A stretch of 64,000 bases of DNA from Laetiporus sulphureus 93-53. Taxonomy: Eukaryota; Basidiomycota; Agaricomycetes; Polyporales; Laetiporaceae. The stretch lies in NCBI RefSeq assembly GCF_001632365.1, contig NW_024468544.1:130978-194977 (forward strand), given 5' to 3'. Positions 3,082 through 55,483 of the stretch are shown here, piece after piece. Within the stretch, counting starts at the first letter, position 1. Each line of letters starts with the position of its first letter. The translations under genes were made by a program, and so were the position numbers. Below the pieces are notes generated by a model. That model was not told the DNA's origin, made no database searches, and saw only the letters and a program-made list of their open reading frames with translations.

Positions 3082-3100
3082 TGTGAAGGTAAAGATGTGT

Positions 3101-3955: not shown

Positions 3956-3992
3956 TTAGCAGGGGTGCAGAAAATTGTCAGATTGTTTCTAA

Positions 3993-7187: not shown

Positions 7188-8776
7188 TCATCATTCTCCA
7201 CCTCTGTGATCCTAGCTGCTTCAACAGCTGGTTCTGGTTCGGCTTCTTGATCCTTCATATCATAGCTGGCAAGGAATGCACAGACTGCTTCCTCTCTTGC
7301 CTTGCTATCATCGTAACTGCTTGATGCCACTGGTGTAGTTACTGCCCTTGTTGCTTGACCTCACTTCAGCATTTCAAATTTGCCTTTGTACTTGGGGTTC
7401 GGACAACATTGCTTGAATATGAAGGGGTGCTTTCCACAACGTACGCAGAGCTTCCTTTCCAGCCATCCTTCCTGTTCCTTTGTGAGTTGGTTCAGGTGAT
7501 CGACGTCCATTGTGTTAGGGTCCTTTCGAGCCCATGGTGCCTGTGATGATGATGTCATTGTTGTTCCATGCTGTCCTGCCTTATCGGCTCTGAATTTGGA
7601 CTCGAGTTAGAGACAGAGGTCGAGATACTCTGGTCATGTGACTGGGTCAGCGATACCTAAGCTGTCTCATGTCACCATTGCCTGGTGCACGTCCTTGTCC
7701 CTATGTTCAGCGATGTAGCCAATAAGAGTGGTGTTCTCCAAGGTGATCTTGGTGGCCCATTGGTGGAACTTCTCTGCAAAGGAGACCATAGTTGGGTAGG
7801 TCTTTGCACAGATCTCCTTCAAGTGCTGTTGCACGTCTTTGTCCAGGTCGAGGGTCCTGTAGTTAACCTTGAGGATATTGATGAAATCGTCCCAAGTGCC
7901 AAGTGGTTGCCATGCTGCTGTCCTGATGCCGTATTCTGACATGTAGGTGAATGCGCCACCTTCTGGGTGCAGTAGTGCCGTGGTGATTTTTCGTTCGTCC
8001 TCATTGATCTCATTCCACCGCATCCAGATGCTGAGTTTTTGGAGCCAGTCCTCCGGACTTCCTTTGCCCGAGTAGTGTGGAGGTTCGGCTATCTTAACAT
8101 GTGGTTTGTGTGGTTGGGTCGTTCCGGGGTTGTGCCCTTGTGTTGTTGAAATGTCGCTTGCTTTGAGTGAAGCTAACTCATGGCACAACTTGGTGTTGTC
8201 TGCACCTACTTCCATCATTTTCTTCACCAGTTCTAACATTCCTGCTTGGGTGACTGTGATTTCGTCATTGAGGATGATCATGTGTGTGTTCTGAGCCTTG
8301 ATTTGTTCTGAGAGTTTCTCATTTTTGGTTGTGAGAACTGCCTCTTTAAGTCATTGCTCTGTCCGAGCTGACTGAATTGAGGCCTCAAGAATGTTTTTGT
8401 GCTCATACATCTTGTCTCCAAGCACATTATACATTTTCTTGAGCTCGTTGTCGACCATCGACTTCATGACGATAATCACCCATTCACGGATGTTGTCAGG
8501 GACTTCGCTGGGAGCGGACTGTCTGATTGCATCTTTAAGATGCTCGTACTGGTGCCCCTCATATGACCATGTGGGAGGTATGTAGGCAGGGAGAAGTGAT
8601 GGTGTTGGGGATGAGGGTCCTCCAACTTGTGATACAGAGTCCTGTGGTGTCAGGACTGGTGATGTTTGTTGTGAGGCTCACGGAGTACTTCCATTGTGCA
8701 TCTCAATGTTTGATCATAAGATGTCCTCCATTTGCTGCGTGAAGGTAGACATTTGCTGGCGACTAGATTCTGACAT
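7163..8776 (-). pseudogene. gag of copy II
   Basis: 1614 nt, exactly the length of gag in copies I and III. The ATG at 8776 is in the context ACAATGTCAGAATC. The region 7667-8281 is open for 204 codons and covers the coiled coil (KKMMEVGADNTKLCHELA) and the capsid-like core (PPHYSGKGSPEDWLQKLSIW). The zinc knuckle CVRCGKHPFIFKQCC is near 7400-7440. It carries the family's shared TGA before LKEAV (preceded here by Gln) and the TAA before LESKF. Confidence 0.85.
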
Positions 8777-8795
8777 TGTGGATGTAAAAGTGTAT

Positions 8796-9649
8796 CTAAT
8801 ACAAAAAGTTCAAGTATCCTTTCTTCTGGATACTGATGAGCGCCTCTGAGATCTCGTTCAACTGCTCCTATTTTCCTATCTGCTTGAAACTAACCCTGCC
8901 TATCTCCAGACAGAGCGTGTTTATAACCTGCTTCTCGATGAAGGTGAAAGTTCATGTGCCTGTGTGGAGGTCTGCACAGACCTTGTCTAGCTCTGCTCCC
9001 AGTACTTGTATTGGGCTGATTGGAGTTGCTTTGAGATGATCTGAGAAGGCTCCTAGTATGGGCTGGAGCCTGAAGTGGGTACTGTCAACCTGCTTGATGA
9101 GGGTCTCAATGTGGAGGGTCGGTCTGATTCTGGATGGGAGAGGACGAATGGGATGTGTGTGTGTGTTCACCTTGATGAAGTTAGGTAGGGGTCGCACTGT
9201 CTGTGGAGCTATAATGATGGGAGGAACAGTGTTGCTGGTTATGATCTCTGGAAGAGGTTTCGGCTTGCGACACCAGTGCTGATATGTCCAGGTTTTGGGC
9301 AAATGCGCTCAAGTGGTGGAGTTCAACTGTGAGGTCAGTGAATGGTACCTTCGACCTTGATGTGCGTGGTGTCCACAACTCGAGCTGCTGCACGCTGACG
9401 ATCTGTGGAGGATGCACCTAGTGATGCAAGGGTGAGGAGTTTCCCTCGCTCCTTGTTTGTCAATCGACACTTGTTCCCTGCTTCAGGATCTTCCTTGTGA
9501 GCCACCTTGTGCTTTGATGCCTTGGGCTGCTCAGTGTCTTGCTGAAGCTCACACCTGGTAGATATCAGATTGAAATGTGTGTCAAAAAAGCTGCCTGCTA
9601 TGGCTGAACCTGCTTGCACTGAAAATACGCAGCCGCTAGTGTTGGACAC
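8796..9649 (-). pseudogene. Pre-gag open frame (ORF0) of copy II
   Basis: Homologue of the frame at 3101-3955. It begins with GTG (SNTSGCVFSVQAGSA), has a stop after VEGTIH at the same place as copy I, and changes phase once before the NFIKVNTHTHPIRPLPSRI segment, so its length is not a multiple of three. It ends 19 nt before gag. No known domain. Confidence 0.55.
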
Positions 9650-9686
9650 TTAGCAGGGGCACAGAAAATTGTCAGATTGTTTCTAA

Positions 9687-10360
9687 TGTCACAGCAGCAC
9701 TGGATAAGAGATCAAAAGACTATAAAAGAAATGGTCATGTGGAACGTGCTGCCCTGATCCCCCTGATCCCTAAAGTGGCTGAAGAGCCTAACACTTACTA
9801 GCTGTGTAGCAAGCATCTGGAAGTGTGATAGATATATGATGGAGCTGGTAAGCTCAGTGGTCGCTACAGTGGTAGATGAGGAGAAACAATCTGAGGTTTC
9901 ATCCTCTACATGCTGGTCTTATATACGTGTACAGGTGCTGACTACTATGAGACATGCTATTGGCTATCTACGTACCTATGCAACTAAACTATACATGAAA
10001 CATTAAGTGGGAAGATCCATCCATAAGTAGAACAATAGGTGAGAAGATCTGTCTTCATCCATGACAATGGTGAGATGATCCATCCTATCATGGTAATGGC
10101 TATTCCTTGAGCCAATTGCCTAAACAATCCCTAACAATAGTCCTTGTTCCCTATGTTCCCAAATGGGTGCCTCTATTGTATCCTGGAATAGACTGGTCTG
10201 GACATATCATCCGTAGGTCTGAACTGTAACATGTGATGTGGACTATCACCTGATCTCTACATGTCACATCTGTGACTGAGTGACATGAGATATTGATAAA
10301 GCACGTGATCTGTGATGTGAGAAAAGTCACGTGTGGACTTTGTGGTGAAAATCCGTGACA
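9687..10360 (-). repeat. 5' LTR of copy II (674 bp)
   Basis: Ends TGTCACAG and CCGTGACA; collinear with the copy I LTR and closer to it than to the III/IV LTRs in length and small indels. Confidence 0.92.
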
Positions 10361-11123
10361 TGAGTGATGATAGGGAAGAGGCGGAGAACATTTTTGGAAA
10401 CTGTTTCAGAGGATCGGAAATGTGAGCAAGGATCGGAAACGTCTTCTACCATATTTGAAGGTGCTATTCTACACCTATATAATGACCCATGTACCTACCA
10501 CAAAACAAGAAGAAAGTTCACCCTTCAGAGTTCAAGTTCTATGCAGTTCTACACTCATCGTCTCAATAGGGCAGCATGCCCTATCCAGTATTACTCATCT
10601 ACATCTCGACACCACGTCTAGTTAGCTCTCAACATTGTGCAGGATAGCACTCCTCATAGTGGCCCATAGCTTGACTCAAGAAGCACTCAGTATAAGTCAT
10701 GTTACTGGGTTTTCCTCTCACGCTACCTCATTTCCTTTCTCACACCATCTCATTTTCTTTCTCATGCCATCTATCATGAGCTTTAGCAACTCAAATCTCC
10801 ATCCCCATCGGACTCTGTAGCCTCAGCAAGCATCCAAGTCTCATCCATAGTGCTGGAGAGCCCTGTATAGATGCCCCGGAGACCTAGGGAGCACCCAAAC
10901 CCCCTCCGTAGTGCTGGGGAGAGCTGCCTATAGTTCTCACACCACAAGATTGGTCAGCTGAAGATCTGCATCACCGCTCAATCCTCGTTCCTCGACCACC
11001 CATCCTGTAGTGACACTCTCTGCCCTACTAGCTGTTCCACATTGTCCACCCTCTTCTCAACTCGACCTGAGTCAGGGACACTCCCCTAGTCAGAATCACC
11101 GCTCACCGCTCATTTTAAGCACA
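10361..11123. other. Intergenic sequence with short local duplications
   Basis: A possible core promoter-like CTATATAATG lies at about 10474. Three degenerate copies of a pyrimidine-rich 20-25 bp unit (TTTCCTTTCTCACACCATC) occur at 10715-10770. A roughly 70-bp duplication around GTAGTGCTGGGGAGAGCTG / ATAGTGCTGGAGAGCCCTG is at 10835-10925. I see no supported gene. Confidence 0.4.
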
Positions 11124-17340: not shown

Positions 17341-19189
17341 TGTGATTGCGAGTACTCAGCTAGCTGTGAAGGGACAGCAAACAACCGAGTGGGGTGAAGG
17401 GGGAACAGTGCGGGGAAGGTCTGCATCTACAGGCGATGCAAGAGCCAAATGTAAAATATGGTGAAGAAGTGAATGAACAAGGCAGCCAATAGACCAGCAG
17501 CCATGTAGAGTGTATGGTCCAGGGTGATGTACGCAAGATACGCCTGATAGAATGGTTCCGGGGTGAGTCTAATGACTTCCGAACAGAGTACAGGAATCTC
17601 AGGAGGCGGGTGTACTGTCTCTGTGGCAATGTCCCAGTGGTCAGTCAAGCGCATTCGACAGTGAGAGCAAAGATTCTGATTAGATCATGAAGTAGAAGCA
17701 GTAGGTTGTGGAGGAGGAGGGAGACCGCTGTCTCTGTGCACTGCTGTGTAAGCCTCTTCACATACTCTAGCTCGTAGATACGCCGTCTGAGGTCCTCCCT
17801 CCAACTACCTACCTATGCTACCCTTTTATACTATGCCCTCAGGGCACATTTGCCTGAGACTCAATTGCACATCAGACCACGCCTGGTCCTGTAACTCGTT
17901 CCCTTGCTTCGCTCGTCTCGTTCCAAATCCCTTGGAGGGCCTGCCGCTGCAGACCACCCCATCGCGTCTCGTTCCGAATTTCTTGGAGGGCCTGCCACTG
18001 TGGACCACTCCATTGTGTCTCATTCTGAGTTCCTTGGAGGGCCTGCCACTGCAGACCACTCCATCGTGTCTCGTTCCAAATCCCTTGACTTCCACTCACC
18101 CGTGTTGTCCTCCGCTCACTGCACTCCCCAAGAGCCCGCCCCAGCGGTCATCCCATATCACAGAAGTCCCCTTGTCCCCGTCCCGAAGGTACCCCATCCG
18201 CTCTTTGAACACCTCGCCCGTGCTGCCTCAACGGTTTCACCTGTTTCTTGGCCCATGTTCGTACGCTGGGTTTTCCTGGAATCATCTCAGATGTGGTCTC
18301 CCGTTGGCACCTCATCCGGTCCACAGCTGCGGGCCTTGGACACATCCACATCTCAACCCACCCACTCCTTCTCGTCCCCTCCCAGTCGTTGCCACTCTTC
18401 ACCCTATTTCCATCTTGCCATGTCTCACACACCAGATGGCATCTCTGGTGAACAGCAATCCACCTACACTCTGCACATACATCAATACCTTCTGCTGCTT
18501 GAGGCCCTGTCCGTGGAACACGTACATGTTCCGTCTGGTTCGCATCCCGCTGTGGTTGAGTGGAATGAATGGTGCCACCGAGTCTGATCCCTCCTGATAC
18601 ATGTCCTATGTCCTCTTTTTCTCCTCCATTTGGATTGACCCATAGCTTCAGGAACTCGCTGACACTGCCTGCACCGCGCTCACCCGGACTGGAATGCAAG
18701 TGCCACTGACTGACTCCTTCGAGTGGGTCAGCAATCTCCGTGTCCTCACTGCCTTCCCCTTGTCACATGATCACAGTTTGAGGTCCCCCTTTATGGTTGA
18801 GGATCTCTTCTCGGATCCTCGATTGCAGCAGCACTTGCTTGAGGCACTCGGCCGAAGATCGTTGCGCCCTGAGGTTGACTCATCTGAAGCTTCCACCCCC
18901 CTTTCGCTCCAACATGGCCAGCCTTCTGCTGTGCCATACACCTCCATGCCTGTAGAAGCTGGTGATGATCCGGACCATACGCTGCACCCGGAGGACTTTT
19001 CTGGAGGCAACAGTCAGTTCTGAGGTCGCGTCCCGAGGTTTGGAGGGCCCTGTCCGTGTAGACGATATGTAGCACAGACTCGACGTACCTGTCCTGCCCT
19101 GAACGCAATGTACCTGTTCTGCTTCGAGCTTGCTGTCAAATGTTAGGGAGAGCAATTATAGTGAGGGCAGCCAAGCTGGCCACCTCACA
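17341..19189 (-). repeat. 3' LTR of element V (1849 bp)
   Basis: Begins TGTGATTGCG and ends CACCTCACA; aligned against 29748-31543. It has three tandem copies of a 54-bp unit (core CTTGGAGGGCCTGCC) at about 17925-18085, whereas the other LTR has two, which explains the 53-bp length difference. Many other differences are transitions. Confidence 0.93.
17427..17654 (-). CDS. LTR-embedded 75-codon membrane-protein ORF
   Basis: Sense-oriented frame near the 3' edge of the LTR, starting at ATG 17654 and ending TAG. The product would have a soluble N-half rich in Pro (ETVHPPPEIPVLC) and a C-terminal hydrophobic segment (MAAGLLAALFIHFFTIFYI) ending WLLHRL, consistent with one transmembrane helix. 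The diverged element VI has a collinear 75-codon frame with identical length, ATG and TAG (33675-33902), and the right LTR of V has the same frame with ATG changed to ACG. In the 5' LTR it would lie in the transcript leader upstream of gag. An overlapping second frame is also open in all copies, so coding needs a substitution test. Confidence 0.45.
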   Translation of the reverse strand: MRLTDHWDIATETVHPPPEIPVLCSEVIRLTPEPFYQAYLAYITLDHTLYMAAGLLAALFIHFFTIFYIWLLHRL

Positions 19190-19199
19190 TCCCCTCCAC
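19190..19199 (-). other. Polypurine tract of element V
   Basis: On the minus strand the ten bases GTGGAGGGGA directly precede the 3' LTR, where plus-strand DNA synthesis is primed in LTR elements. Confidence 0.75.
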
Positions 19200-19551
19200 A
19201 CTCAAATATCGATCGTCCCCAGTCAACGTCACAATCTCCCGATGCAAGGTGCCATGTGATGGTTGCAGGCTCTGGCAGGTACCATGAAGCCCAAGTCAGG
19301 GAGCGGCTGAATCTTGTCCAGAACATGCAGTGCCTGGCCCACACAGCCAGTAGCCGGACGGCCCTCGAGCTATCACGCACGTCACATCCCGTGACCCAGA
19401 GATGGTTTCGCGAGAGTTTCCATCAGCGGTTGAAACCCCACAGCGTGTCCGTGACCCACTCCATCGAGTTCAACAAGGAGTGTGGCCAAGAACACCCACA
19501 CCCTTTTGCTCCCCCTCTGCTTTCGCCCCACTCTCCTCACACTCCGTTGCT

Positions 19552-21826
19552 ATGTCATCGAATACTGCTCCTTGCCCCACGGCCAATACAGCTGCCAACG
19601 ACACTGCCCTTGCCGAAGCTGCCGACCAGCACATTATCTGAACAGTGCACAATCTGGCCACCGCTATTCACCTCGAGTATGCAGGGTTCCCAGAGTGGAG
19701 GATGCCCCTGGCACCAAGTCTGCTCATGGAGTACTGAGCCATGACCGAGTGGCTTGCTCCACTGATTGTGAGTGACAGGTCACACTCGGGGCATTGCCAC
19801 CGCTGATCTGCCACTACAGTGTCACCTTCGCACCATTGAGCAAATTGCCAAGGCCTGCCAGACACCTCTGCCTTGGATGTGGCAACACATGGAGGTCATC
19901 TACTCCATCACCATTGGCCACTTGCAGGGGCTCGGCCAGCATGGCAAGGAGCTTCCACAGTCCCTTGAGTGGATCAATGACATGCTCCCCCTGACCGTGG
20001 CCGAGGAGCACTTTTTCTTGCATGCAGTAGAGTTGATCACGCATGCTCCCCAGCCCATCATCCATTACTGGGCAGGGAAGACCATTCCCATGAATCTCCT
20101 CTGCATCATATGGCAGAACTTCATCTCCCAGTACCCGAATCCTCCCCCTGCACTGCTAACTGCACCACCCACCCCACCACCAATGTCAACAGCCCCTGAT
20201 TCAAACACTTTTGCTGGCCCACCTCCCACTCGGCACGACGAGGGGCTTCTGCCTCAAGGAAGGGCAATGGTGACTCAGCCTGCATGCAGCACAGGTCCCA
20301 TAGAGCTGAGCAGCAGCACGCTCAGGTTGCACTCATTGTGGATGCCCCAGAACCCTGCTCTGGTGAGTCCTTCTCGGTACAGAGAAGCCCATGCTAACCA
20401 CCAGCCACAGCGCAAACTTGCAGAAGCAGTCACACTTCGGGTTGAGGAACTGCCTGTTGGCATGTGTGGAGTCTCTGTGCTGGACAAGACCTACTCGCTG
20501 AGGGGTAGCCCTGCATGCTCTGACAAGGAGTCAGAGGAGAGTGACCAATGGGCCCCACATGTGCTGCCCAACCTGAGCCCCATGCCACGACTCCGTCCAA
20601 GGTGCCAACTCCCCACGCTGCAACGTGCCCCTGGTGCCCAACCCACTGCCATTCAGCTAGCAGCCCCACGCATGTCTGACCCGATCACCATGGCCCAGTG
20701 CATGTTGACTCACGCTGCTGTCGAGGGGGCAACCGCTCCGTCTTCGATGTCATGCACAGCAGTCCCTGCTCAGTCGTCCCAAGTCACTGCACCTACTGCT
20801 CGACCAGCCCAAGTCACCACGCCCGTCGCTCGCCCCCCCACCTCTGACATTTGCAGATCATCTCACCTCCCACCCCCACCTGTTGTTGTGATACCTATCA
20901 CGATGGGCGCACCACACAAATGCATCGAGATCAATCCCCTGACACACACGCCCACCGCCACATATGCTGAAGTGTGGCACGCAGATGACCTGTGCGCTCC
21001 TTGTCGCCAGGACCAGATCTCCTGCTGGTGGGATGCATGTGGTCACACTTGTCAGCGGTGTGCCAGAGCACGTGCCAAGTGTCCCTTGGCATTCAAGAAT
21101 GACGTGCCCAATCTACCCCGTAAGTGGTTCCCTCCCCCATTCTTGTTCTCAGTCTGCCTCGATACTAAAGACAGTTATCCTGCAACCACTTCGACATACC
21201 TGGGCATCACTGGGGCCACCCCGGGCCTTGTCATTTTGATGGGATGGCCACTGTATGGCCCAGATCTGACCACGTGTGGAGAGCTACCCGAGGCCTTGGA
21301 CCCCGAGATCCACCACCCGGATGTGTACATTGACGAGCTGCCCACCGCCCGCAAATGAGGTCACAGCACCAAGGGTGGCTCACCCCCAAAGAAGTGCACT
21401 CGCACTTGCACCCCATCACCACTGCCTGCCCTGACCATCGTATGAGCTGGCTCGTCCGACCGCTCATCTTCTGGCAAGGAAGCGGAACCCTCGAGGGTTC
21501 TGATTGCAGCGCCAGAGCCTGGACCATCTGTGCCCTCCTGCAGGTGCACGAAGAAAGAACACGGGGATATGCATCGCGCATGCACCCGGACGCCATCCAT
21601 CTACAATGATGCCCCTCTGTCTGCCCCACCGTCCAGCGCCTCTGGGCCGATAAGTGAGCATGTACTGTCACTGATCACTGATTCCGCCAGTGGTGAAGAA
21701 ACCTCCCAGACTCAAAGCACCATTTCCCCCAGCCCAAGTGCGAAGGCACTCGGCAAGTGCAGGGCTGTCAACGTGTCCAATGAGGAGGGCAAGGTCGAGA
21801 ACGTGCTGGGCCCCACAGTGGAGTAG
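19552..21826 (+). pseudogene. Antisense gene A of element V: protein with Zn2Cys6-like cluster, one intron
   Basis: Exon 1 is 19552-19767 (72 codons), the intron is 19768-19819 (52 nt, GTGAGT...CTACAG), and exon 2 is 19820-21826. The join keeps frame (Leu-Ile then Cys-His-Leu-Arg), giving about 740 codons with four TGA codons (19639, 19735, 21356, 21459); otherwise the frame is clean, with 528 codons open at 19772-21358. Residues from about 464 read C-X2-C-X6-C-X8-C-X2-C-X6-C (20993-21082), the spacing of GAL4-type binuclear zinc clusters, here central rather than N-terminal, with one extra Cys in the loop. The rest is Pro/Ser/Thr-rich, and the C-terminal tail has basic and acidic stretches. 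It runs opposite to gag-pol between the LTR and gene B. Function unknown; nucleic-acid binding is an inference. Each TGA could be one C-to-T step from CGA, so inactivation may be recent. Confidence 0.65.
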
Positions 21827-22162
21827 GCAATGGTGTGACTTGGTAGGTTGGTCATCGTGCATGGGCACAAAGTATGTTCGCTTCTCTAGCTTTTTGTGTT
21901 GCTACATCCTGTCACCCCGCCCGCTTGTCCCGTCTCACCATCCGCATGCATATCTCTGAACTATCCTGTAAAACACATACCGGAATAGATGCTTTTCGCC
22001 AAGGTCCCGCATGCGCTCAGGGCACTCTGACCTGCCCCGATTAAAAGGCCCACCCAGAGCGGCTGCCACAGCCCAGTGGTCACGTGCCTCGGGTGGCCCA
22101 GCTAAAAATGAGCCAAAGTCTCGCAGACACTCTACCCATTTGTCCCACAGGGAGGAGCCACC
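21827..22162. other. Spacer between antisense genes A and B
   Basis: 336 bp holding the presumed 3' end of gene A and promoter of gene B. An A-rich GATTAAAAGG at about 22039 is the only TATA-like sequence I see upstream of the gene B start. Confidence 0.35.
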
Positions 22163-23138
22163 ATGAAAGATCTTCCCTCGGTGTTCCTGTGTGCTCATCC
22201 CCACCTGGCTGTGTTAGTGGACCGCTTCACTGCGTCGACTGCAGTCTGTCTTCTGGAGGGCCGGGATGAGTTTTTGTCACATCTGCACATGTTAGAAGCC
22301 CAGTGGGTATGCACCAGCATGTTGCCCTCCCCATAGTATGATTGCTGACCTCATCCGATAGTTGGATTTGCAGGACTATATCTCCATCGAGACATCCATG
22401 GGGAGCTCAATGCCCTCTCTGCTCAGTTGGTCGACACTCCGGCAACCCCTCGCCCGCTTTAGTGTGTGGAGAGTCTGTGGTGAAGAGTACAGCTGTCCGC
22501 ACGCTGATTCTCAGTTTGAGAGCCACTTCCTCAGTCCTGGGCCCACCCCGGTGAGGATTACGCTCCCCGATGCCAATCCTTCCCTGGCACCGTTGGCCGG
22601 CGAGACCGCTTCTGCTCCATCCATCTCATCCCCGTTCCTGGTTGCCCTTGCTGCATCCAATACCCCTGTCCACACTGTTCCAGAGCTCATCCACCAGATA
22701 TCCACCATGGAGGATGTCTTGGTGGCTACATTCAACGGCTTGTAGGTCAGGTACAAACACGTTTTCGATCACGCCTGTACAGCTATTAAAGAGAGCTTAA
22801 CTCAGGATATTGAGTCATCGGTCCATAGTGCAGTGGAGGAGGAGGCCATTGACTTGAAGGCTGAACTCCGTAGCTCCATTCATCATGACCGTGTCACCCT
22901 TCTCACCCTTATTCACGATCTCCAGATGGTGTCCCTTCCGAACACCAAGTTTGGCTTTGCCCTTGCCCGCCTTTCCCGTGCATTCACCGAATCCCTCGAA
23001 CAGCATGAGAACCTCCAAGACGAGCTCTCTATTCTCATGAGCAGCCCCCAATTCCTGCTCCTCATTGCATCTGCGTTGGACATGGCCCAAAACTTCGACT
23101 ACAGCTCCCTTGCGCAGACCCTCCAGGAGGCCACCTAA
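22163..23138 (+). pseudogene. Antisense gene B of element V: uncharacterised coiled/helical protein, one intron
   Basis: The start ATG at 22163 has a good context (CCACCATGA). Exon 1 is 22163-22306 (MKDLPSVFLCAHPHLAVLVD to LEAQW), the intron is 22307-22361 (55 nt, GTATGC...CGATAG), and exon 2 is 22362-23138 (LDLQDYISIETS onward), in frame across the junction. About 307 codons with a single TAG at 22743-22745. The C-terminal 130 residues are strongly helical (HVFDHACTAIKESLTQDIES, ending SSLAQTLQEAT), with a Ser/Pro-rich middle. The stop TAA (23136-23138) overlaps the pol stop on the other strand by two bases. No domain recognised; nothing suggests an enzyme. Confidence 0.6.
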
Positions 23139-24337
23139 TTCTCATCGGATGAGGTCTCCTTCCTTCCAGACAATGGCTCTGCTTCCCATTCCCATTCGAT
23201 CATGTCCAGATCTTCCTGTACCTCCCCCGGTTCCTGATGTATCACATCCTGTAGCGATACCTGTGCATCCATCCACGATTTGTATGGAATGACCCTAAAA
23301 GCCGCATAGCGATGCTTTGAAATAGAACCATCCAACTCAGCCAGAATGTATGAACCTCCCATATTGCGTCAGACCATGACCATCGGCCTGACATAGCACA
23401 GCTTCAACTTCCGGTTATGGTCAGTTTCGAATTGCGAGTTCCGTACCAGTACCAGGTCGCCCGCCTTGAACTTAAACTCACGGATCGTGTTCTTGAATGC
23501 TTTCTCAACCTGCTTGATTGACTTGAACCACGTGGCCCGAACCCGTCTCCTGACCTCTTGCAGGTCCTCTTGCCTCTTGAGTAGCTGCCATGCCCGTACT
23601 GCCAGTAGCTGCTCCATCGACATCAGCTCATCTGTGGCTGGAGAGAGGTACGTAGCTTCTGCGAGGTCGAACGGAAATACTGGCTCCACCCCATGGACCA
23701 TGAAATACGGAGACCATCCAGTACTCTTCTGAATCGAGACCCTTTCCGCCCAGAAGACAGCATGTATGACCTTCGGCCAATCTGTCGCATTCCCTTCACC
23801 ACAAACCTTCATGGCCGCTTCCCGAACATCGAAGTGCCACTGTTCCACGATACCGTTTGCTTGAAAATTGTACGCTGAGATCTGGATGTGCGTGATCCCG
23901 TATTGTTTGCAGAGGTGCTCCAGGGCTGCAACAAATGGTGCCCCGTTGTCCGTGACTATCTCTGTGACTGCTCTCCACTGACAAAGCACTTTCTCGAATA
24001 AGAACGTTCTGAGAGTCTTTCCGGTTTCTTACCGCAACATCCTCCACTCGGGCCAGGACGAGAGCGCGCACTGAGCCTGTACAATGTGCACGTATCCACC
24101 CGCTTTAGGCATATGCATTGAATCCACATGTAGCTTCTGGAACAGCCCCAACACATGCACCATCGGAGGGGGTACATGGTACTTGTACATTTTCTGGAGC
24201 TGGCATTCATGACAGATTTGAACGTACCATTTGACATCCTGGTCAAGGTACGGCCACCAGAACTGCTCCAGCAACCTGGTCTGGATGATAAAGATACCTT
24301 TGTGTCCTAGCTCATCATGAGCTGTCCATAGTAACAC
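23135..24337 (-). pseudogene. Integrase region of element V pol
   Basis: The HHCC zinc-binding start shows as HDELGHKG then CHECQ near 24190-24310. The catalytic core shows LHVDSMHMPK (first Asp), IVTDNGAPF (second Asp) and, 35 residues on, GIVEQ (Glu), so the DDE set is present. The C-terminal part has a KFKAGDLVLVRNSQF strand typical of the gypsy GPY/F-like region and ends at SSDEN-stop (23135-23137). Frame breaks occur around 24030 and 23366. There is no chromodomain after it, unlike family A. It would insert element cDNA into the host chromosome if intact. Confidence 0.85.
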
Positions 24338-24619
24338 ATAATGGTGAGCCTGGTCCGGGACCCGCTTGTGTCATCCCTGAGCATCCCTCCACCATAGCCG
24401 ACCTTTCCGTATGAAAAATCGCGCCACCTCACGGACAAACCTGTCGAACTCCTTCTCATTCAGTTCGTCCGGTTTCTGTGAGTCTTGAAGGAAGTGCTGG
24501 ATTTTCTTCACCCACTCATCTGCCTGCTGAGCTTTTGACATATGGGAATATCTACATTTGCGACTGCCTCAGATGAGTGTACTGACATGGTGCCCATCAT
24601 ATCTTCCCTGCACGTGCTG

Positions 24620-25345
24620 TACTGGCCCTGAAGGACCGTCGTTGGGCTGAGGTTGGCCCATTCCACTGTGAATGCACACGCTTCATCGATCCACTCTTCG
24701 AAGTCATCTGGTTCGGGCTCATCTTCAACCGTCCCAGGTTATCGCGAGAGCCCATCCGCCGCTCCGTGTCACGCCGCCGGAACATGTACCAGGTTGAAGT
24801 CAAAAAGGAGTATCCCAGCTATCCAGTGGTTGATGGTCACATTCAGTTGAATGTCCAGGTTGTTGAGCATCCCTTTGACATATTTGGCGTCTACCTCCAC
24901 GTCAAATGTCTTAAGCCTGATCAGATATATCCGGTATGCTCGCAGCACCCTAAATAGTCCGAGTAGCTCTATCTTTGCCTGAGAGTACCGTGATTCTCGC
25001 TCGTTCCAGGTAATCGACCCGAAGTGGCTCGGACACTGTCATTTCTGCGTGTCTATCTGAAACAAGATGAACCCTACCGCTATGACTGACAAATTGACTG
25101 CAAGGATGACCTTTTCTTCCGAAGTATAGCTGATCAGGGCGAGAGCTCCTGAATTCATGACCGTGTCCTTGAGTGTCTGCATAGCCCAGGCATGCTCGTC
25201 CCTCTACTCAAAGTCCACCTCCTTCTTGAGCAGGGTGGTAAGAGGCTTCACAAGCTTCGCAAAGTTTTTCACAAAGATCCATACGAGCCCACACATCCCC
25301 AGAAACCCCCTCACCTGCGAGATCGTCTCGCACTGTGGCCAGTCC
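24620..25345 (-). pseudogene. RNase H region and linker of element V pol
   Basis: VILAVNLSVIAVGFI (about 25070-25115), FGSITWNERESRYSQAKIEL (about 24960-25030) and LFRVLRAYRIYL identify the gypsy RNase H domain that degrades template RNA. The first catalytic residue is Asn where the family has Asp (Ala-Val-Asp). A connection segment with FLGMCGLVWIFVKNFAK precedes it, and HGADGLSR, with stops on both sides of it, follows as the hinge to integrase. Several nonsense codons. Confidence 0.8.
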
Positions 25346-25359
25346 CAAATTTTCTGCAC

Positions 25360-26472
25360 TCAGGCTTCGTCTGGAAGCCATCCTACGTACGTACAGTGGT
25401 GCCTGACAATGACCACTTTCGGGACGCATAGGTAAGCCTTTTTGCCCAAAAAGGTTCCTCCAAAACGTTTCATCTGATGTATGACCCGGTTCATATTTTG
25501 GAAGTGCTCCCATACGAACTGCCGGATCCCTGGGTTCTCAGAAATAGTCTCATACCTGCCCTCCGGAAGCTCATAACATGTCGCTGGCCCCTTCACTGGT
25601 ACATTGTCGACAAAAGGAACAGTGACCTCTGGTATCTCATCCTGCAGAATATGTGTCACATCGCCATGCATGATTTGCATTGAATTGGTATAGCCCATCA
25701 GAATCGAGGTAAGCCAGAGAGACCCTAGTGGAGTCTGGAAGGAGGTCAGGTCATGCGACCGCCAGTTCAAGGTCTGCTGGTTGAAAGCAACAAATAGGTC
25801 CAGGCTTCCATAGCATCCACGAGCTCTGAAGGATTTCACCAGATGCTCCACCATCAGAGGGACCACTGAATCTTTAATCACTATCCCGTTCAACGTCTGT
25901 AGGTCGTGAACCAACCGGAGCGACTTTCCATCCTTCTTGACAACGCAGAACCACCTTGACCGATACGATGAGTTCGATCCCTCATAAACCTCTGAGTCGA
26001 TCTTGTCCTTGATAATCTGTACCACTTGTTCGAATATTCCCGGTGTTATCAGCATGTTTTTGAGCACCTACGGGATGTGTTCCACCGTCAGAATGACTAC
26101 CAGGTCGAAGTACTCATTCTGAAACTGCCCCTTTTCCGTTTCGTCCCATGCAAATGCCATGTCATGTGCGCACATTAAGAAATCTGTGAGCTTCACCTCC
26201 TCCGGCCAGAGGAAACCATCACCCGTGACATTAAGTGTATCGTGCCTCTCTCGTGTGTACCTCCCTTGAGGCTCGAATTCGGGCAGCTGGACCAGTAGGG
26301 TTGGAAGCCCCTCTAGCGGGTTGAGCAGTTTCCTTCGCACAATTTGGAACCCTTCTGGTAATGTGGTCACCATGGGCTTGACCCAGTTGGCCACCTTCTT
26401 GTAGGTGAATATTTCTGTCTTTTGCCTTTCGACCGTGACCTGCCCCACCTTCCCGTGACTCCATACTCTCAT
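25360..26472 (-). pseudogene. Reverse transcriptase region of element V pol
   Basis: In one frame with a single stop at 26068: linker KKVANWVKPMVTTLPEGFQI to VILTVEHIP, then RT from PGIFEQVVQIIKDKIDSEVY through SRWFCVVKKDGKSLRLVHDL (fingers/palm), SLDLFVAFNQQ (first Asp motif) and FVDNVPVKGP (catalytic box, canonical FVDD or FIDD). The second Asp of the box is Asn, so the polymerase would be inactive. The C-terminal NRVIHQMKRFGGTFLGKK thumb-side motif is shared with the fossil at 38133-38850. Confidence 0.88.
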
Positions 26473-26759
26473 CTCCTCAGTTCAAAACCCAGTCCGAAGA
26501 TCCATGCGCTCACGTCCCACGTCATACAGCAAAGAAAAATGTATTTCAGATTCGGTGACTTTACATGGGACACAAGATGATGTGGAACTAACGGATGCAG
26601 TTTCGGACTGTACCTGGCTCTTTTCTGTACACGCCTTCTTCTTCTCGGGGCGTGTCTCTTCTATGGATCTGCCTATCCTTCCCTCCGGACTCTGTTGAAC
26701 AGTCCATGGCAGTGTGAGCACATACATGGAATACAATCCTAATATCGCATCTCCTCGAG

Positions 26760-27404
26760 CTACACCCAATTCATCGACCCATGAAAACCCACAAGGTTTG
26801 GATCGACCTCTCGCTGCACGGTCCACACTTTTGTTGGTACCACGACCCGTTCCCCTGAGTGTGGGTCTGTAATTGTGATTTGCTGCTCTCCAGAGGCAAA
26901 GTCTCTAGTCTCACACACCGCTGTAGCAAAGAACGGCCACCCTAAGAGGATTTCGAATGACATATGGTGCATCACCTGAACTTGTACCGCAATGATGACT
27001 GAGCTGAACTGGAGCTGAACACACGGAAGCTTTCTGACTGTCTTCATTACCGAGGTGTTCGCAGTCTCGAGCAGGATTGCTCCATCTGGGTTGAGTGGGG
27101 CTCTGAGGTCTTTCCAGACGTCCTCCTGCATGACGCATATCTGCACGCCCTGGTCCAGAATACATTCGCACTGAAGTGTGTCCTTGATGATTGGCTCGAC
27201 AACCCAGAGCGGGAGCGACCCCTTTGTTGGCAACATTGTCTTGGATGCCGTCAGAAACACACTCTTCTCGCCCGCTCCGGCTTCATCCTCATCCGTGACT
27301 TCTTTGACCCAAGCAGTCATTGCGACTCGCTTCAGGGTGATCAGCTCTTTGAGGTGTTTCTGCAGTTCTGGAGTGTGTTGTATGAGCTCTCTGATAGTGA
27401 CCAT
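26760..27404 (-). pseudogene. Protease region of element V pol
   Basis: A 214-codon frame with ECILDQGVQICVMQEDVW (about 27110-27165), matching a retropepsin Asp-x-Gly active site with Gln instead of Ser/Thr, then FEILLGWPFFATAVCE, the ILG-type strand. It follows gag after a frame break and precedes RT in a different frame, so this copy has at least one frameshift in 26470-26760. Confidence 0.7.
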
Positions 27405-27625
27405 TACGGGCAGATCGAGTATCTTCCTGACTATTCCAGGGATGTTCTTCTTGTCTTCGATCGGGGTGCGATACCCATAGGTGGACTGTGAGGCCAGAAC
27501 CCCCCTGGAAGTGAACTCACTTTGATTCCGGGTGGCCCCTTCTGCACTCCGCGCCCTTCCCCGGACACAACCTTATCCTTTCCAGGCTTGCCACTGACCA
27601 CCTCAACCCTGTCGAAGTGTACCCT

Positions 27626-29690
27626 TCATCGGGCATTGTCTATCACCTGAAAGACATGCTCTGTTCTGTCCATGACCCGTGACTCATCGATGACTGCCAT
27701 GTTGACCTTGCGCACTTCCTCGAGTATATTGACTTGGTGCGGTGGCTTGTCCCTTGATTGCGGAGTCGCAGCGGACTGCACCGCTCCCGGAACAGATGAT
27801 CCGAGGTGCTGGGAGTACCAGGAGTTGACCCGATCCCACATGTTGTTTCCAGGGAGCGCCCTCAGAACGTACCCCCCATCGGGCAGTCGGATGCGACCAT
27901 TCTTGTCACGGTACACCTTTCCGGCCTTGATGTCTTTGTCCACATGGGGGCAACAGCTCATGAAGTGGTCCAGTCCATCGCAGTAGTTGCAGTTGCAGTT
28001 CATGGGGTAGACCGTCATGTTTCCTGGGGCACCTGCCATGGCCCTAGCTGCTGACGTCGTTGCTGGTCCTTGTGGTGCATAACTTTCCCAGCATCCCTGA
28101 CCACCTGCAGTAGACTGAGCTTGGCTCTGTAAGAAGCTTGTGAGGCGTTCCACTGACTTTTGCAGGTCCACAATTTCACCAGACTCCTGTTTGATCACCG
28201 TAGCAGTCACCCCAGAAACTGTTCCTCCGATGGTAGTATTCGCAGATTGTCCTATGGTGGGGGCAGCCGGAGTGACTCCCGGACCGCTCGTACTTGCCCT
28301 GCCTCTAAGGATACCATAGCTACCTCCAACTAAACCTCCTCCTGCCAGAGTTTTCTAGGCTGCGTCGTGAATGTTGTTCATGCTCCATGGATCATCTGGA
28401 TGATGGTTCGGGTGCAGGATCTCGCACCGGAGCAGAATGGTTGCTTTTTTGGTCGGGTGGAATCCCCTGACATATTGCTCATCCTGGGCCGCGGGCGATA
28501 CTCATCCCATCCAGATTAGGTAGTTCGCTATTGGGGCAAATTCGTGGAAGTAGATAGCTTCTTTGGCCCAAGTGTGAATACCCTGGGCAAGTGCTTCATA
28601 GATGCACTGTTCTAGGTCAGCAATGATGTAGAGTCAATCGCCCTCTGCTCTGGGGTACAACTCAAAGATCTGCTGTCTGAACATCATGTAGTCAGCCGTT
28701 GCCGCTGCGGAGACCATAGACCACAGCTCCTCTTGTTATACAGTAAGATAGTGCAGTGCATAGTGAACCTTTTGTGCACCTGTGAGCCCGGCCTGTATTG
28801 CCAGCTCATCTAGGTCATCGAAGTATCACTGCAGCTTTCGAGGTTCTCCATTGAACATTGGCATGGTCTTCTATTCCTGGGCCGGCATCAAGAAACCTCT
28901 TTCCGGAGCCTGTCCTGGTCCTTGTCCCCTGCCTTGTCCTGGTCCTGATCCGCTGCCGCCACCTCCTGATCCTCCCAGTCCCCCTGGTCTGCCTGTTCCA
29001 CCTCCTCCTCCGCCTCCTCCACCGCTGCCCGATCTGCCCCCGTATCTGCCACCAAGTCCACTTGATCTGCTCAGGCCACCACCCGGGTTCCTGCCCAGTC
29101 TGCCTCCTTCTCCACCACTGCCACCGCTGCCCCCGCTGCCTCCATGGAACCCTCCGTTACCTGGACCAGATCCTCCACTGTGCCCTGCCGTGATGAAGAT
29201 CGGTATCTGCGAGGCGAACACTGATCGAGTCCCAGTTATGAGCTCCAAGGGTCGCTGAATGGTGACTGTCAGGGCCATCCCACCTGATGCTCCTTTGGGC
29301 GTGTATGAGAGTGTATGCTTACGTTTTCGTACTTCAGACGGGGTCGTTACTGTTTCCCTTGGTACCGCGAAGTGCCCGGGGAGAATCGCAGAGAGGTCTC
29401 GTAGTATGGAATCTTCTTGCCGTGCTATGTCTGTCGTGTCATCATAAGTCGACAGTTCATATTCGTCCACTCCTGCTGTCGTGCTGTTGATCGGGATTTC
29501 GGAGTACAGATTTTCAGTAGTTGCTCTGAGGTCAGACACAGTTTCGGTCACGGTCTCGATCGCCTCCTCGAAAATTTTGTCTGAGATGCTTGGCACTGCT
29601 GAGAGTGTTGACAAAGCTGAAATGTCCACATCTGGAGAGTCTGTTCTGCTGGACGCTCTTTCCTTGGTGAGGGCTTGGGCTGCCCAGACT
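27626..29690 (-). pseudogene. gag of element V
   Basis: One phase throughout (segments 28871-29629 and 27626-28210 are in the same frame) with about six nonsense codons between. Order: an N-terminal acidic part (EEAIETVTETVSDLRA), a Gly/Ser/Arg-rich stretch of about 90 residues near 28890-29150, a capsid-like region (NGEPRKLQ, then QQIFELYPRAEGD), and a C-terminal segment with NCNCNYCDGLDHFMSCCPH, a zinc-knuckle-like C/H cluster. No ATG is visible before SQVWAAQALTKER, so the start is unresolved. A TGA after Trp-Met-Gly is shared with element VI. Confidence 0.8.
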
Positions 29691-29731
29691 TGGCTTCAGG
29701 TCTTCACCTTCCTAAACTTTTCCCTCCTTGT

Positions 29732-29742
29732 GGTGGGCTCCA
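29732..29742 (-). other. Primer-binding site of element V
   Basis: On the minus strand TGGAGCCCACC lies five bases after the 5' LTR, as expected for pairing with a tRNA 3' end GGTGGGCTCCA. The same 11 bases occur at the same distance in element VI. I cannot assign the tRNA. Confidence 0.6.
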
Positions 29743-29747
29743 GAAAA

Positions 29748-31543
29748 TGTGATTGCGAGTACTCAGCTAGCTGTGAAAGGACAGCAAACAACTGAGTGGG
29801 GTGAAGGGGGAACAGTGCAGGGAAGGTCTGTGTCTACAGGCGACGCAAGAGCCAAATGTAAAATATGGTAAAGAAGTGAATGAACAAGGCAGCCAATAGA
29901 CCAGCAGCCACGTAGAGTGTACGGGCCGAGGTGATGTACATGAGATACGTCTGATAGAACAGTTCCGGAGTGAGTCTAATGATTTCCGGACGGAGTACAG
30001 GAATCTCGGAAGGTGGGCATACTGTCTCTGTGGCAATGTCCCGGTGGTCGGTCAAGCACGTTCGACAGCGAGAGCAAAGATTCTGATTAGATCATGAAGT
30101 AGAAGCAGTAGGTTGTGGAGGAGAGGGAGACCACTGCCTCTGTGCACCGCTGTGCAAGCCTCTTCACATACTCTAGCTCGTAGATATGCCGTCCGAGGTC
30201 CTCCCTCCAACTACCTACCTATGCTACCCTTTTATACTATGCTCTCAGGGCACATTTGCCTGAGACTCAATCGCACATCAGACCACACCTGGTCCTGTAA
30301 CTCGTTCCCTCGCTTTGCTCGTCTCGTTCCAAATCCCTTGGAGGGCCTGCCGCTGCAGACCACCCCATTGTGTCTCGTTCTGAATCTCTTGGAGGGCCTG
30401 CCACTGCGGACCACTTCATTGCATCTCATTCCAAATTCCTTGACTTCCACTCACCCATGTCACCCTCCACTCACTGCACTCTCCAAGAGCCTGCCCCAGT
30501 GATCATCCCGTATCACAGAAGTCCTCTTGTCCCCATCCCAAAGGTACACCGTCTGCTCTTCGGACACCCCTCCTATGCTGCCCTAACAGTTTCACCTGTT
30601 TCTTGGCCCGTGTTCATACACTGGGTTGTTCTGGAATCATCTCAAATGCAGTCTCCCATTGGCACCTCATCCGGTCCACAGCTGTGGGCCTCGGACATGT
30701 CCACATCTCAACCTGCCTGCTCCTTCTTGTCCCCTCCCAGCTGTTGCCACTCTTCACCCTATTCCCATCTTGCCATGTCTCACACACCAGATGGCATCCC
30801 TGGCAAACAGCGATCTGCCTACACCCTGTGCATACATTGATACCTTCTGCTGCTTGAGGCCCTGTCCGTGGAACGTGTATATGTTCCGTCCAGTTCACGT
30901 CTCGCTGTGGTCGAGTGGAATGAATGGTGCCACCGAGTCTGATCCCTCCTGGTACGTGTCCTATGTCCTCTTTTTCTCCTCCATTTGGATTGACCTGTAG
31001 CTTCAGGAACTCGCTGACACTGCCCGCACCGTGCTCACCTGGACTGGAATGCAAGTGCCACTGATCGACTCCTTCGAGTGGGTCAGCGATCTCCGTGTCC
31101 TCACTGCCTTCCCCTTGTCACATGATCACAGTTCGAGGTCCCCCTTTACAGTTGGGGATCTCTTCTCGGATCCTCGATTGCAGCAGCACTTGCTTGAGGC
31201 ATTCGGCCAAAGATCGTTGTGCCCTGAGGTTGACTCGTCCGAAGCTTCTGCCCCTCTTTCGCTCCAACATGGCCAGCCTTCCGCTGTGCCATACACGTCC
31301 ATGCCTGTAGAAGCTGGTGATGATCTGGACCATATGCTGCACTGAAGGACTTTTCTGGAGGTGACGGTCAGTTCTGAGGTCGTGTCCTGAGGTTCGGAGG
31401 GCCCTGTCCGTGTAGACGATCTGTAGCACAGACTCGATGTACCTGTCCCGCCCCGAACGCAATGTACCTGTTCCGCTTTGAGCTTGCTGTCAAATGTTAG
31501 GGAGTGCAATTATAGTGAGGGCAGCCATGCTGGCCACCTCACA
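29748..31543 (-). repeat. 5' LTR of element V (1796 bp)
   Basis: Direct repeat of 17341-19189 with the same TGTGATTG and CCTCACA ends (plus-strand view). It contains two copies of the 54-bp unit. It should hold the promoter for gag-pol; a TTTTATACTATG sequence near 30230 is a possible TATA region. Confidence 0.93.
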
Positions 31544-32320: not shown

Positions 32321-33988
32321 TGTGAGGTAGCATTCCGGGCTGCCCCCACACAGAATGAATTATCTCGGATGAGCTACACAAAGCGAACAAGCATGGCTTC
32401 AGAATGAGTTCTCTGAGACAGGTACATGGCGCATCAGACTCTGGGTGAAGTATACAGTGTGGGGCAGCTACTAGCTCAGGAGAAGTGACATCTCGAGGCA
32501 GCACCATACATTCCTACGCTACGGGATGACTACACAACACGTGATGCTCATCCACGGTGAACCAGCACACACACGGGATCTCATAGCAGAACTGACCACC
32601 AAAGTCCTTGAGGCACAGCATGTGGTCAGGATCGTCCTCTGGGGTGATGGCGGGGCGAGTCCTGCTGGTCGGAGCATGGTCAGGGATTGGCAAAGAGTTG
32701 ACAAGTATACACAGTTCATGGACCCATGGGTAGGAGTCAATCGAGTGAACGTGCAACCTGGACTCCACAAGGTCCGAATGAGCAGACGCCGCCCAATGCT
32801 ACAAGGAGACCTCAGACTGGCACGTGCAAGGAAGGAGGTCGATAGACATACCAAAAGCGACCAGACTGCAGTGCACCAGTGATACCACTCCATCACAGTG
32901 GGATGTGACTCAGACGGGATATGGGCATGCTCGAACGCCAGCACCTCGAGCAAGAGGAGGTAACGATGGAGCCGGGTGGTGCAAGTGACAGCTAGAGAAT
33001 CAAACTGTGATTGCGTGGTGCGAGACATGGCTGAGTGGGAGGAGAGAGGGGGAAGAGGGGCCAGGACAGGCAGAGAACTGAACACGGACAGAGTCCCGGG
33101 GCAGGTGCTCAGACTCTAGGGGGCAAAGCCGACGGAGAGCCGTTGGAGGAGGTAACCAGTCTCGGCCAGAGGGGTAAGGGCAGATTAGGGCAGGAGTGAA
33201 CCATCGGGGTGGTGAGGTGGGCGAATGGGAATGCGATTACGATGCTGCGGAGGAAGTCAGCAGGACGAGACATGGTGGAGGACGAGCATTGGGGTGGGAA
33301 ACCGGGAACTGGAGCGAGTGGGTCTCTGCAGAAATGAATAGCAAAATGCAGGTTTGGAATGCGATGCGATGGAGTGGCCAGCAGCGATGGGCTCTCCGAG
33401 AAACGAGGGATAGTGGAACAAGTCAACGAGTTAGGGGCCAAGCATAGTCGGATATGGGAGCCAGGACCGGGGTAAGTGCACCTCGAGTTTGCAATATTTA
33501 AAGAATGTGTAGACAGAGATAGGGGGAGGACTTTCAGACCATGTACCTAGGCGATAGAGAATGTGAACGAACTTGCACAGCAGCGGACAACAACAGGGAC
33601 AGCGGTCTCAGTTCTTCTCTCAAGCTTCGGGCTCTACCACACATCAGAATTCTCATCTTTGCTCTAACTGTTGAATGAATCTTGCGAACCAGCAGAGCGC
33701 ATCAGCGGACACAGTACGCCCTCATCCCGAGACCCCTATATTCTGTCCGGAGCCAGTTAGACTTGCCCCGGAGCTGTTCTATTTCTCGTACTTTATGTAC
33801 ATCACACTGGACTGTGTCCTTCACGGTCTCGCTGTCTTCATGGGCATCACCTTCATTCATTTCTCCACTATCTTCTACATTTGGCTTCTGTGTCACCTCT
33901 AGATGCAAACCTTCCGTGCACTGTTCCCCCTTCATCCCTCTCAGTTGTTTGCTGTCATTTCGCAGCTAGCCGAGTACTTGCAATCACA
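32321..33988 (+). repeat. 5' LTR of element VI (1668 bp)
   Basis: Starts TGTGAGGTAG and ends GCAATCACA, as in V. The middle is only patchily alignable to V, but the last 350 bp are well conserved. Confidence 0.8.
33675..33902 (+). CDS. LTR-embedded 75-codon membrane-protein ORF of element VI
   Basis: Counterpart of 17427-17654. ATG at 33675, TAG stop, 75 codons, no indel relative to V. Shared residues cluster at YITLD and at the hydrophobic C-terminus (FIHFSTIFYIWLL). About half of the residues are identical by eye. Confidence 0.45.
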   Translation: MNLANQQSASADTVRPHPETPIFCPEPVRLAPELFYFSYFMYITLDCVLHGLAVFMGITFIHFSTIFYIWLLCHL

Positions 33989-33993
33989 TTTTC

Positions 33994-34004
33994 TGGAGCC
34001 CACC
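33994..34004 (+). other. Primer-binding site of element VI
   Basis: TGGAGCCCACC five bases after the LTR, identical to element V. Confidence 0.6.
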
Positions 34005-34064
34005 GCGAGGGGGAAAAAGTTTCAAAAAGTGAAGACCAGAAGCCAAGTCAGGGTGGCCCAAGCC

Positions 34065-35455
34065 CTTGCCAAGGAGAAGTGACAGGAGCAGTCGAACCCG
34101 CCGGACATAGAGATTTCAAATTCATTGGTTTCCTCGGTGATGCCCAGCCTTTCCTACAAAAATTTAGAGACAGTCATCGAGACCGTGTCCGAACCTGCAT
34201 CGAGCACGGACAAATTGTTTCCGGAGATTTTGACCAGTGGGCGAGACAACGAGGCAGAGGAGTACGAGCTTTCAATGTACGATGATGCAACGGACGCAGC
34301 CCAGAATGAGGACTCTATTCTCCATGATCTTTCAGCAATCCTTCCCAGTCACTTCTCCATTACAAGGGAAGTGAGGCAGAACCCTTCTGAGATAGAGAAG
34401 CAAAAGCACACCATGGCCTACTCTGGTACACCAACTCTTACCGAAATGGGGTCGACGACTACGATTCAGACTCCTGTGCAGACGGGTTCCATAGCCCTGT
34501 CTGAATATGCGTCCCGGATTCCAGTATTATCAGTGACGGAACACACTGCAGTGCCTGGCAACATGGGGGGTACTCGGGAGGAGGTGGAGGAGGCAGAGGA
34601 GGCAGAGGAGGCAGAGGTAGTGATGGAGGAACAGGACAGGGGAGTAATACAGGAAGAGGGTTTAGCAGGTCAGGCAGACTGGGTAGCAGGGGCGGTGGCA
34701 TGGGCGGTGGCAGTGGCAGTGAACCAGGTGGCAGATCTGGACCAGGAGGAGGAGGAAGCGGTGGACCAGGTGGACCAGGCAGAGGTGGTGGCAGTGGCAG
34801 TGGCAGATCAGGACCAGGTGAAGGAGGAGGAGGACAAGGGCCAGGGAAAGTACCCGGGAGAGGTTTCATGATGCCAGCTTATGGACAGAAGATGGTGCCA
34901 GCATTCGATGGAGAACCTAGGAAGCTTAGGCAATATTTCAATGACCTGGCGGAGCTGGCGGCACAGGCTGGACTTACTGGTGATCAGAGAATTCACTACG
35001 TGCTGCGCTACTTGATGGTCCAGCAGGAGGAGCTATGGTCAACGGTCCTGGTGGCATCCACCGTGAACTTCGCCCTCTTCAAGCAACAGATCTTTGAGCT
35101 CTACCCAGAAGCAGAAGGTGACTGCCTCTACACCATTGCCGATCTCGAACAGTGCATCACAGAGGCTCTCGCTCGGGGTATCCATACCCGCACCAAAGAG
35201 GCGATCTACTTCTGAGAGTTCACCCCGATCGCAAACTACCTCATTCAGATAGGATGAGTCTCGCCCGTGGCACAGGACGAGCGGTACATCCAGGGCTTCC
35301 ACCCAGCTGTGAAGGTGACGATCTTGCTTCAGTGCGAGATCTTTCATCCCAATCACCATCCGGATGATGCCTGGAACATGAACGACATACACGATGCTGT
35401 GCAGAAAATCCTAGCTGGAGGAGGTCTTATTAGAGGGAGCTATGGGATTCGCAGA
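34065..35455 (+). pseudogene. gag of element VI (truncated)
   Basis: Homologous to gag of V: SNSLVSSVMPSL and YKNLETVIETVSEPA at the N-end, EEYELSMYDDATD, a Gly-rich domain (34560-34860), then FDGEPRKLRQYFNDLAELAA and QQIFELYPEAEGDCLYTIAD in a second phase, so there is one frameshift inside the Gly-rich part. Stops include TGA at 34072 and the TGA after Gln-Ile-Gly that V shares. It ends at the truncation. Confidence 0.8.
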
Positions 35456-46141: not shown

Positions 46142-46159
46142 TGCATGGATAGATATAAA

Positions 46160-47016: not shown

Positions 47017-47052
47017 TAAGCAGGGGTGCAGAAAATGTCAGATTGTTTCCAA

Positions 47053-47751: not shown

Positions 47752-47769
47752 TCAACCATGTCATCGCTT

Positions 47770-54571: not shown

Positions 54572-54607
54572 TTAGAAACAATCTAACATTTTCTGCACCC
54601 CTGCTTA

Positions 54608-55466: not shown

Positions 55467-55483
55467 AGATTTTTATACACACA

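Follow-up and report, generated by a model that had tools for sequence, protein, structure and literature searches.

Antisense genes in long terminal repeat (LTR) elements are already known from plants, from the fungal element Boty and from human T-cell leukemia virus type 1 (HTLV-1). Plant Ty3/Gypsy elements of the Retand lineage (Retand, Grande with its gene23, and RIRE2) are described as having antisense open reading frames (ORFs) (PMC7264820). The Boty element of Botrytis cinerea and Sclerotinia sclerotiorum carries an antisense extra gene, brtn, as related in PMC7264820 and PMC8365987, which cite Zhao et al. 2011. The hbz gene of HTLV-1 is read antisense from the 3' LTR, and its spliced transcript encodes a nuclear basic leucine zipper (bZIP) protein that counters the effects of Tax and Rex (PMC10186651). 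Here we describe antisense genes in element V, a Ty3/Gypsy element of the basidiomycete Laetiporus sulphureus 93-53, and in its relatives in the same genome. Element V lies in a 64,000-nucleotide stretch of contig NW_024468544.1 (positions 130,978 to 194,977 of assembly GCF_001632365.1), referred to below as the window and numbered from its first base. The Laetiporus case is a variant of the known arrangement, with usually two genes and conserved introns, in a basidiomycete.

Like the Retand lineage, the V lineage consists of Gypsy elements with antisense ORFs (PMC7264820), but it differs from the plant elements in usually having two genes, in its conserved introns and in its basidiomycete host. 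The word "intron" does not occur in the main text of the plant Retand-lineage papers, including PMC7264820, which itself calls for spliced transcripts to be examined. Retand has a TRP28 domain, whereas the Laetiporus antisense proteins have no Pfam family above the cut-off; in the Pfam-A scans, TRP28 (PF04195) was not listed for them at E values up to 1. Boty brtn, in contrast, is a single named gene in ascomycete hosts, and it is likened to the Laetiporus genes by its published description. The likeness to hbz lies in antisense orientation and splicing, the latter predicted from sequence in Laetiporus; hbz differs in its bZIP protein and its retroviral setting. Among literature titles and the opening lines of abstracts, the level at which fungal transposon papers such as PMC4905642 and PMC5381629 were covered, no report of antisense genes in basidiomycete elements was found.

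The two genes of element V are on the plus strand between pol and the 3' LTR, opposite to the minus-strand gag-pol. Gene 1 (19552 to 21826) has exons at 19552-19767, 19820-21119 and 21186-21826, the last placed by comparison with other copies. Its first intron (19768 to 19819; 52 nt, GTGAGT...ACAG) restores the frame, and its second (21120 to 21185), also placed by comparison with other copies, has the acceptor AA in V. Gene 2 (22163 to 23138) has exons at 22163-22306 and 22362-23138, separated by a 55-nt intron (22307 to 22361; GTATGC...GATAG) that likewise restores the frame. Its TAA stop on the plus strand overlaps the TAG stop of pol on the minus strand in the four bases CTAA (23135 to 23138). 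The element map thus confirms the placement of the two genes proposed in an earlier sequence-only reading. That reading had given each gene one clean short intron, which holds for gene 2 and for the first intron of gene 1 but misses the second intron of gene 1. It had also described long open frames with few stops; the frames are constrained between copies, as shown below, but neither gene is intact in V, gene 1 having four internal TGA codons and a lost intron 2 splice acceptor and gene 2 one internal TAG. Each gene has a public gene model (gene 1, P0001; gene 2, P0003). P0001 (Laetiporus sulphureus 93-53) matches 96% of the query at 97% identity. The two models splice the first intron of gene 1 and the gene 2 intron and skip sequence around the stops. 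A third model, P0005 (LAESUDRAFT_764900), which matches the copy on C92, joins genes 1 and 2 in one protein. Public gene models for elements of this kind are unreliable.

We consider it somewhat probable that the Laetiporus Ty3/Gypsy lineage that includes V carries intron-bearing antisense genes downstream of pol in most of the copies found (a pair in 23 of 40), and that these genes encode zinc-binding regulators of the element. This reading is supported by the position of the genes, their opposite strand, the introns conserved in the compared copies, the recurrence in three clades and purifying selection. The zinc binding is predicted, and the regulatory role is inferred.

Relatives of the V segment were found in the host genome on C5, C87, C72, C92, C63 (two), C13, C24 and C2. 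All nine V-clade integrase loci found (V included, 66 to 100% identity) have an adjoining antisense gene 2, which in four aligned copies is 80, 65, 50 and 47% identical to that of V. At the aligned overlapping stop site, the gene 2 stop is present in 9/9 copies and the pol stop in 7/9, scored by position and not by per-copy frames. Gene 1 matches are antisense at four of the nine loci (V, C5, C92 and C72); C87 retains part of gene 1 exon 1, and on C2, gene 1 has no integrase assigned to it. The arrangement is that of an aORF-3R, an antisense ORF between pol and the 3' LTR in most copies, with an LTR beyond the antisense genes seen in V-clade copies and in two S elements (see below) but not in every copy. 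The 3' LTR edge with its polypurine tract is kept in V, C5, C87 and C92.

Intron positions are shared even between divergent copies. The gene 2 intron has a GTATG donor and an AG acceptor in all six aligned copies, at lengths of 52 to 58 nt and down to 47 to 50% protein identity. Intron 1 of gene 1 is shared by V, C5, C2 and C92, with a GT donor in three of the four (AT in C5) and an AG acceptor in all. Intron 2 of gene 1, compared in seven copies, has the donor GTAAGT in four and ATAAGT in three, and the acceptor AG in five (not in V or C25). The ATAAGT donors are preceded by C, and CpG decay is therefore their likely cause. These shared intron positions indicate that the genes travelled as antisense units, as the sequence-only reading had proposed, and rule out captured mRNA as their origin.

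One relative of gene 1 stands outside the element context. It lies at 2237-3389 of L036 (G000:C25:366001-373000), has a CpG observed/expected ratio of 1.04 and is flanked by CorA transporter-like and MYND-finger-like genes (both identified by eye). No V-type LTR, reverse transcriptase (RT) or integrase was found in the 7 kb around it. It is possibly a domesticated or a source copy.

We compared copies pairwise by Nei-Gojobori dN/dS and pN/pS, with CpG decay uncorrected. For gene 2 exon 2, pN/pS was 0.23 to 0.54 in all 21 pairs of seven copies, and dN/dS was 0.10 to 0.52 in the 16 pairs with finite dS. The integrase gave dN/dS of 0.06 to 0.46 in 15/15 pairs (six copies). For gene 1 exon 2 (six pairs of four copies, the V slice beginning 48 bases early, inside intron 1), pN/pS was 0.50 to 0.66 and dN/dS 0.17 to 0.37 in five of the six. 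Gene 1 thus evolves faster than gene 2 and integrase. When all six frames were compared, the antisense frame of the gene itself had the lowest pN/pS in 14 of 15 gene 2 pairs, from which the six C63a pairs were excluded, and in 6/6 gene 1 pairs. These comparisons of sequence indicate that the antisense frames of genes 1 and 2 are under purifying selection between copies, a point that the sequence-only reading had put up for checking.

Antisense genes also recur in two sister clades. Downstream of the sister integrases L037 and L038 are two other antisense genes, S1 and S2, whose ATG starts are present in both copies. By eye, at least four introns of S2 could be read in both aligned copies, each with GT, a CTAAC-like branch site and AG. 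One pair was compared for each gene; the S2 and S1 exons had the lowest pN/pS (0.28 and 0.50, respectively) in the antisense frame and no stops there, the L037 slice for S1 extending beyond a frame break. A third clade (L040 and L041) carries the antisense genes T1 and T2. Weak matches of T1 overlap S1 relatives on C20 and C94, weak matches of T2 lie directly downstream of S2 on C105 and C56, and by eye the two units resemble each other in the arrangement of their cysteines and in having an intron directly ahead of the cluster. The S and T units therefore probably have a common origin.

The association with integrase was examined across the genome. The best 150 of 215 candidates were scored, giving 150 rows, of which 40 loci at 34 to 100% identity were kept, 10 second pieces were dropped and 100 rows at or below 29% identity served as a control. 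A V, S or T gene was found antisense within 6.5 kb downstream at 32 of the 40 loci, three of which (V, C85 and C80) had supplied the query sequences. At 23 of these 32, the pair was complete. None of the 100 control integrases had such a gene.

Fungal Zn2Cys6 clusters have the spacing C-x2-C-x6-C-x(5-12)-C-x2-C-x(6-8)-C. Gene 1 of V encodes C-x2-C-x6-C-x8-C-x2-C-x6-C (20993 to 21082, plus strand), an exact fit, and the six cysteines are kept in V, C92, C72, C25, C63 (59-61 kb) and C5, although the C5 copy has a stop inside the cluster. The spacings read by eye in the other proteins are x2, x5, x11, x2, x6 in S1 (with a stop inside in the L038 copy), x2, x9, x8, x2, x6 in S2, x2, x5, x8, x2, x6 in T1 and x2, x8, x8, x2, x6 in T2, which was assembled from two broken copies. 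All four deviate in the first half and keep C-x2-C-x6-C. In the Pfam scans, Zn_clus (PF00172) appeared in S1 with an E value of 0.015 and 15.8 bits, below the cut-off of 21, and was not listed for gene 1. The gene 1 cluster stretch gave weak matches in the PDB to RING proteins (best E value, 0.071) and to PPR1, Pho7 and LEU3 (E values, 0.58 to 6.6). One further cysteine and one histidine are also conserved in this cluster, which may explain the RING proteins among the matches. The cysteine clusters of the antisense proteins thus resemble Zn2Cys6 by predicted spacing and are not assigned to that family. Relatives of the genes outside Laetiporus were absent from the matches listed in protein searches that scored the 7998, 7998 and 7989 most-word-sharing candidates.

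Several observations weigh against a lineage-wide set of zinc-binding regulators. No antisense protein scanned had a Pfam family above the cut-off, and the fold prediction for gene 2 was poor and helical, with a mean pLDDT of 44. The cluster regions of V gene 1 and S2 do not align as profiles (probability, 1%), and homology between them is unsupported. The constant presence of both genes, which the sequence-only reading had put up for checking, was found at the nine V-clade integrase loci for gene 2 but not for gene 1, and 10 of 14 gene 1 matches do not adjoin an integrase match; two of these ten (C2 and C63) lie near V-type LTR sequence. That reading would have fallen had the segment been absent from other copies or independent of the element; the recurrence leaves it unrefuted and it is supported in substance, with the broken genes of V and these stray gene 1 matches as the two points of difference. 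Only one antisense gene was found at 9 of the 32 positive loci, and eight of the 40 (C77, C47, C11, C9, C113, C24:60403, C46 and C56:84166) had none detected within 6.5 kb. About 11 kb downstream there are S1 and S2 matches for C46 and an S1 match for C24:60403, which were perhaps separated from their integrases by insertions. C77 is without the whole antisense stretch that is present in C80. Since the queries are lineage specific, the absence of matches at the control integrases excludes only transposon crowding as the cause of the association. The own-frame test is noisy, as even for integrase, a known coding gene, another frame was lowest in three of 15 pairs. In addition, dS is saturated in the deep pairs, and the ratios are uncorrected for CpG decay. 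Finally, the youngest dated element, an S-clade element on C5, has a frame break, with its S1 match split between two frames.

The gap on C77 was seen in L039 (G000:C77:86001-92000), where the 4-kb antisense stretch of the close relative C80 is absent at 589-624 and about 36 bases at the junction are common to both flanks. These features suggest that part of the element was deleted internally.

The S-clade element on C5 bears on whether younger copies are intact, which the sequence-only reading had also put up for checking. Part of its LTR is 94% identical over 800 bases, compared with 88% in V, and the CpG observed/expected ratio of its antisense region is 0.92. Its matched integrase, S1 and S2 stretches contain no stops. 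As this is one element, and its S1 match is split, a trend towards intactness in younger copies is suggested for S2 alone.

The antisense genes could instead serve another step, such as nuclear entry, export or packaging, or have an envelope-like role. Their place as a third gene between pol and the 3' LTR is that of env-like genes (PMC7264820), but the antisense orientation and the cysteine clusters, with a DNA-binding kind of spacing, point elsewhere, and we regard such a role as unlikely. It is also conceivable that the antisense RNA itself matters, pairing with the genomic RNA and limiting copy number, and that the proteins are incidental. Gene 2 ends inside the pol stop codon, which would make any antisense transcript complementary to genomic RNA, and an antisense-RNA role has been discussed for plant elements (PMC7264820). 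However, a role of the RNA alone requires neither amino acid constraint in the antisense frame nor kept introns, and both were found, which leaves this explanation rather improbable. Host genes captured by chance in one copy and now decaying would fit the stops in the V copies and the C25 relative of gene 1, which stands apart with its CpG ratio of 1.04, but gene 2 is in the same place at all nine V-clade integrase loci found, with selection and conserved introns. Capture in a single copy is refuted by this recurrence, and chance capture is very improbable; an ancient capture, before the V clade diversified, may have occurred and would be compatible with the regulator reading. That the conservation stems from a sense ORF or an RNA structure on the other strand is equally remote and is disfavoured by the six-frame tests, since a minus frame was lower in one of 15 gene 2 pairs (C5-C87, 0.54 versus 0.56 for the own frame) and within 0.01 in C92-C63b, whereas the own frame was lowest in all others and it is the antisense strand that retains the GT-AG signals.

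If the antisense genes encode regulators of the element, as we favour, gene 1 would be driven by a promoter on the U3 side of the 3' LTR or within the 362 bases between this LTR and the gene, and transcription of gene 2 would begin in a start region of its own. Both proteins of the S and T clades would, like the gene 1 protein, fold a Zn2Cys6-like cluster, and gene 2 would make a helical partner protein. The antisense proteins would be nuclear, with the LTRs of the element or host silencing as their targets. This mode of action would resemble that of HTLV-1 HBZ or the one proposed for Grande gene23. The antisense unit would carry a cost through its complementarity to the genomic RNA. When a retroelement is copied, it is expected to lose any intron that reads in the same direction as its genomic RNA. 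Those described here keep their positions even between copies that have diverged strongly, and the probable reason is the antisense orientation of the genes to the RNA that is copied: reversed in the genomic RNA, the introns would be invisible to the spliceosome.

Element V itself has the Ty3/Gypsy layout, with two LTRs around gag-pol and integrase downstream of RT. Read on the minus strand, its 3' LTR (17341 to 19189, with the ends TGTGAGG...AATCACA) is 88% identical to the 5' LTR (29748 to 31543) in the LTR pair comparison. A candidate polypurine tract, GTGGAGGGGA, adjoins the 3' LTR at 19190 to 19201, before TGTGAGG, and a candidate primer binding site, TGGAGCCCACCAC, was read beside the 5' LTR at 29730 to 29742. 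No target-site duplication was seen by eye beside the LTRs. The gag-pol region (23135 to 29747) is decayed, interrupted by stops and frame changes, and comprises a gag-like part, DUF4100 and protease, RT and integrase. Two Pfam families exceed the cut-off, Integrase_H2C2 (24032-24370; E value, 6.4e-15) and DUF4100, which shares the ORF at 26763-27572 with an aspartyl protease match below the cut-off. RVT_1 in the RT ORF (25363-26067; E value, 0.078) and the integrase core rve (23372-24028; E value, 0.003) also fall below. The RT motif, usually YxDD-like, is FVDN in V. For gag-pol the CpG observed/expected ratio is 0.66, and for the antisense region it is 0.51. Element V is an old, decayed copy. 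A partial relative, comprising an LTR end and part of gag, lies in the opposite orientation at 33524-35448 and is 69 to 73% identical.

Other repeats lie elsewhere in the window. Another repeat family is present at 498-4670, 6192-10361 and 43558-47752 and inverted at 53862-59326, with large inverted arms and identities of about 65 to 99%; two of its copies are 5.7 kb apart. A tandem array of 11-base units (35902-36228) lies beside AT-rich repeats of about 82 bases, and an inverted pair of 793 bases (51378-52170 and 53056-53848) is 99% complementary with a spacer of 885 bases.

In a more far-reaching form, which we put forward tentatively, this would be a basidiomycete Gypsy lineage with a self-encoded, multi-intron, two-gene antisense regulatory cassette built on zinc-cluster proteins. 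The cassette may have been inherited by retrotransposition since before the clades split and invented independently of plant Retand and HTLV, its antisense placement letting the introns persist. The dozens of copies in one sequenced fungus form a natural set in which to ask what makes selfish elements retain antisense genes when these bring a risk of double-stranded RNA. The same set bears on whether plants, fungi and retroviruses reached antisense nuclear regulators independently.

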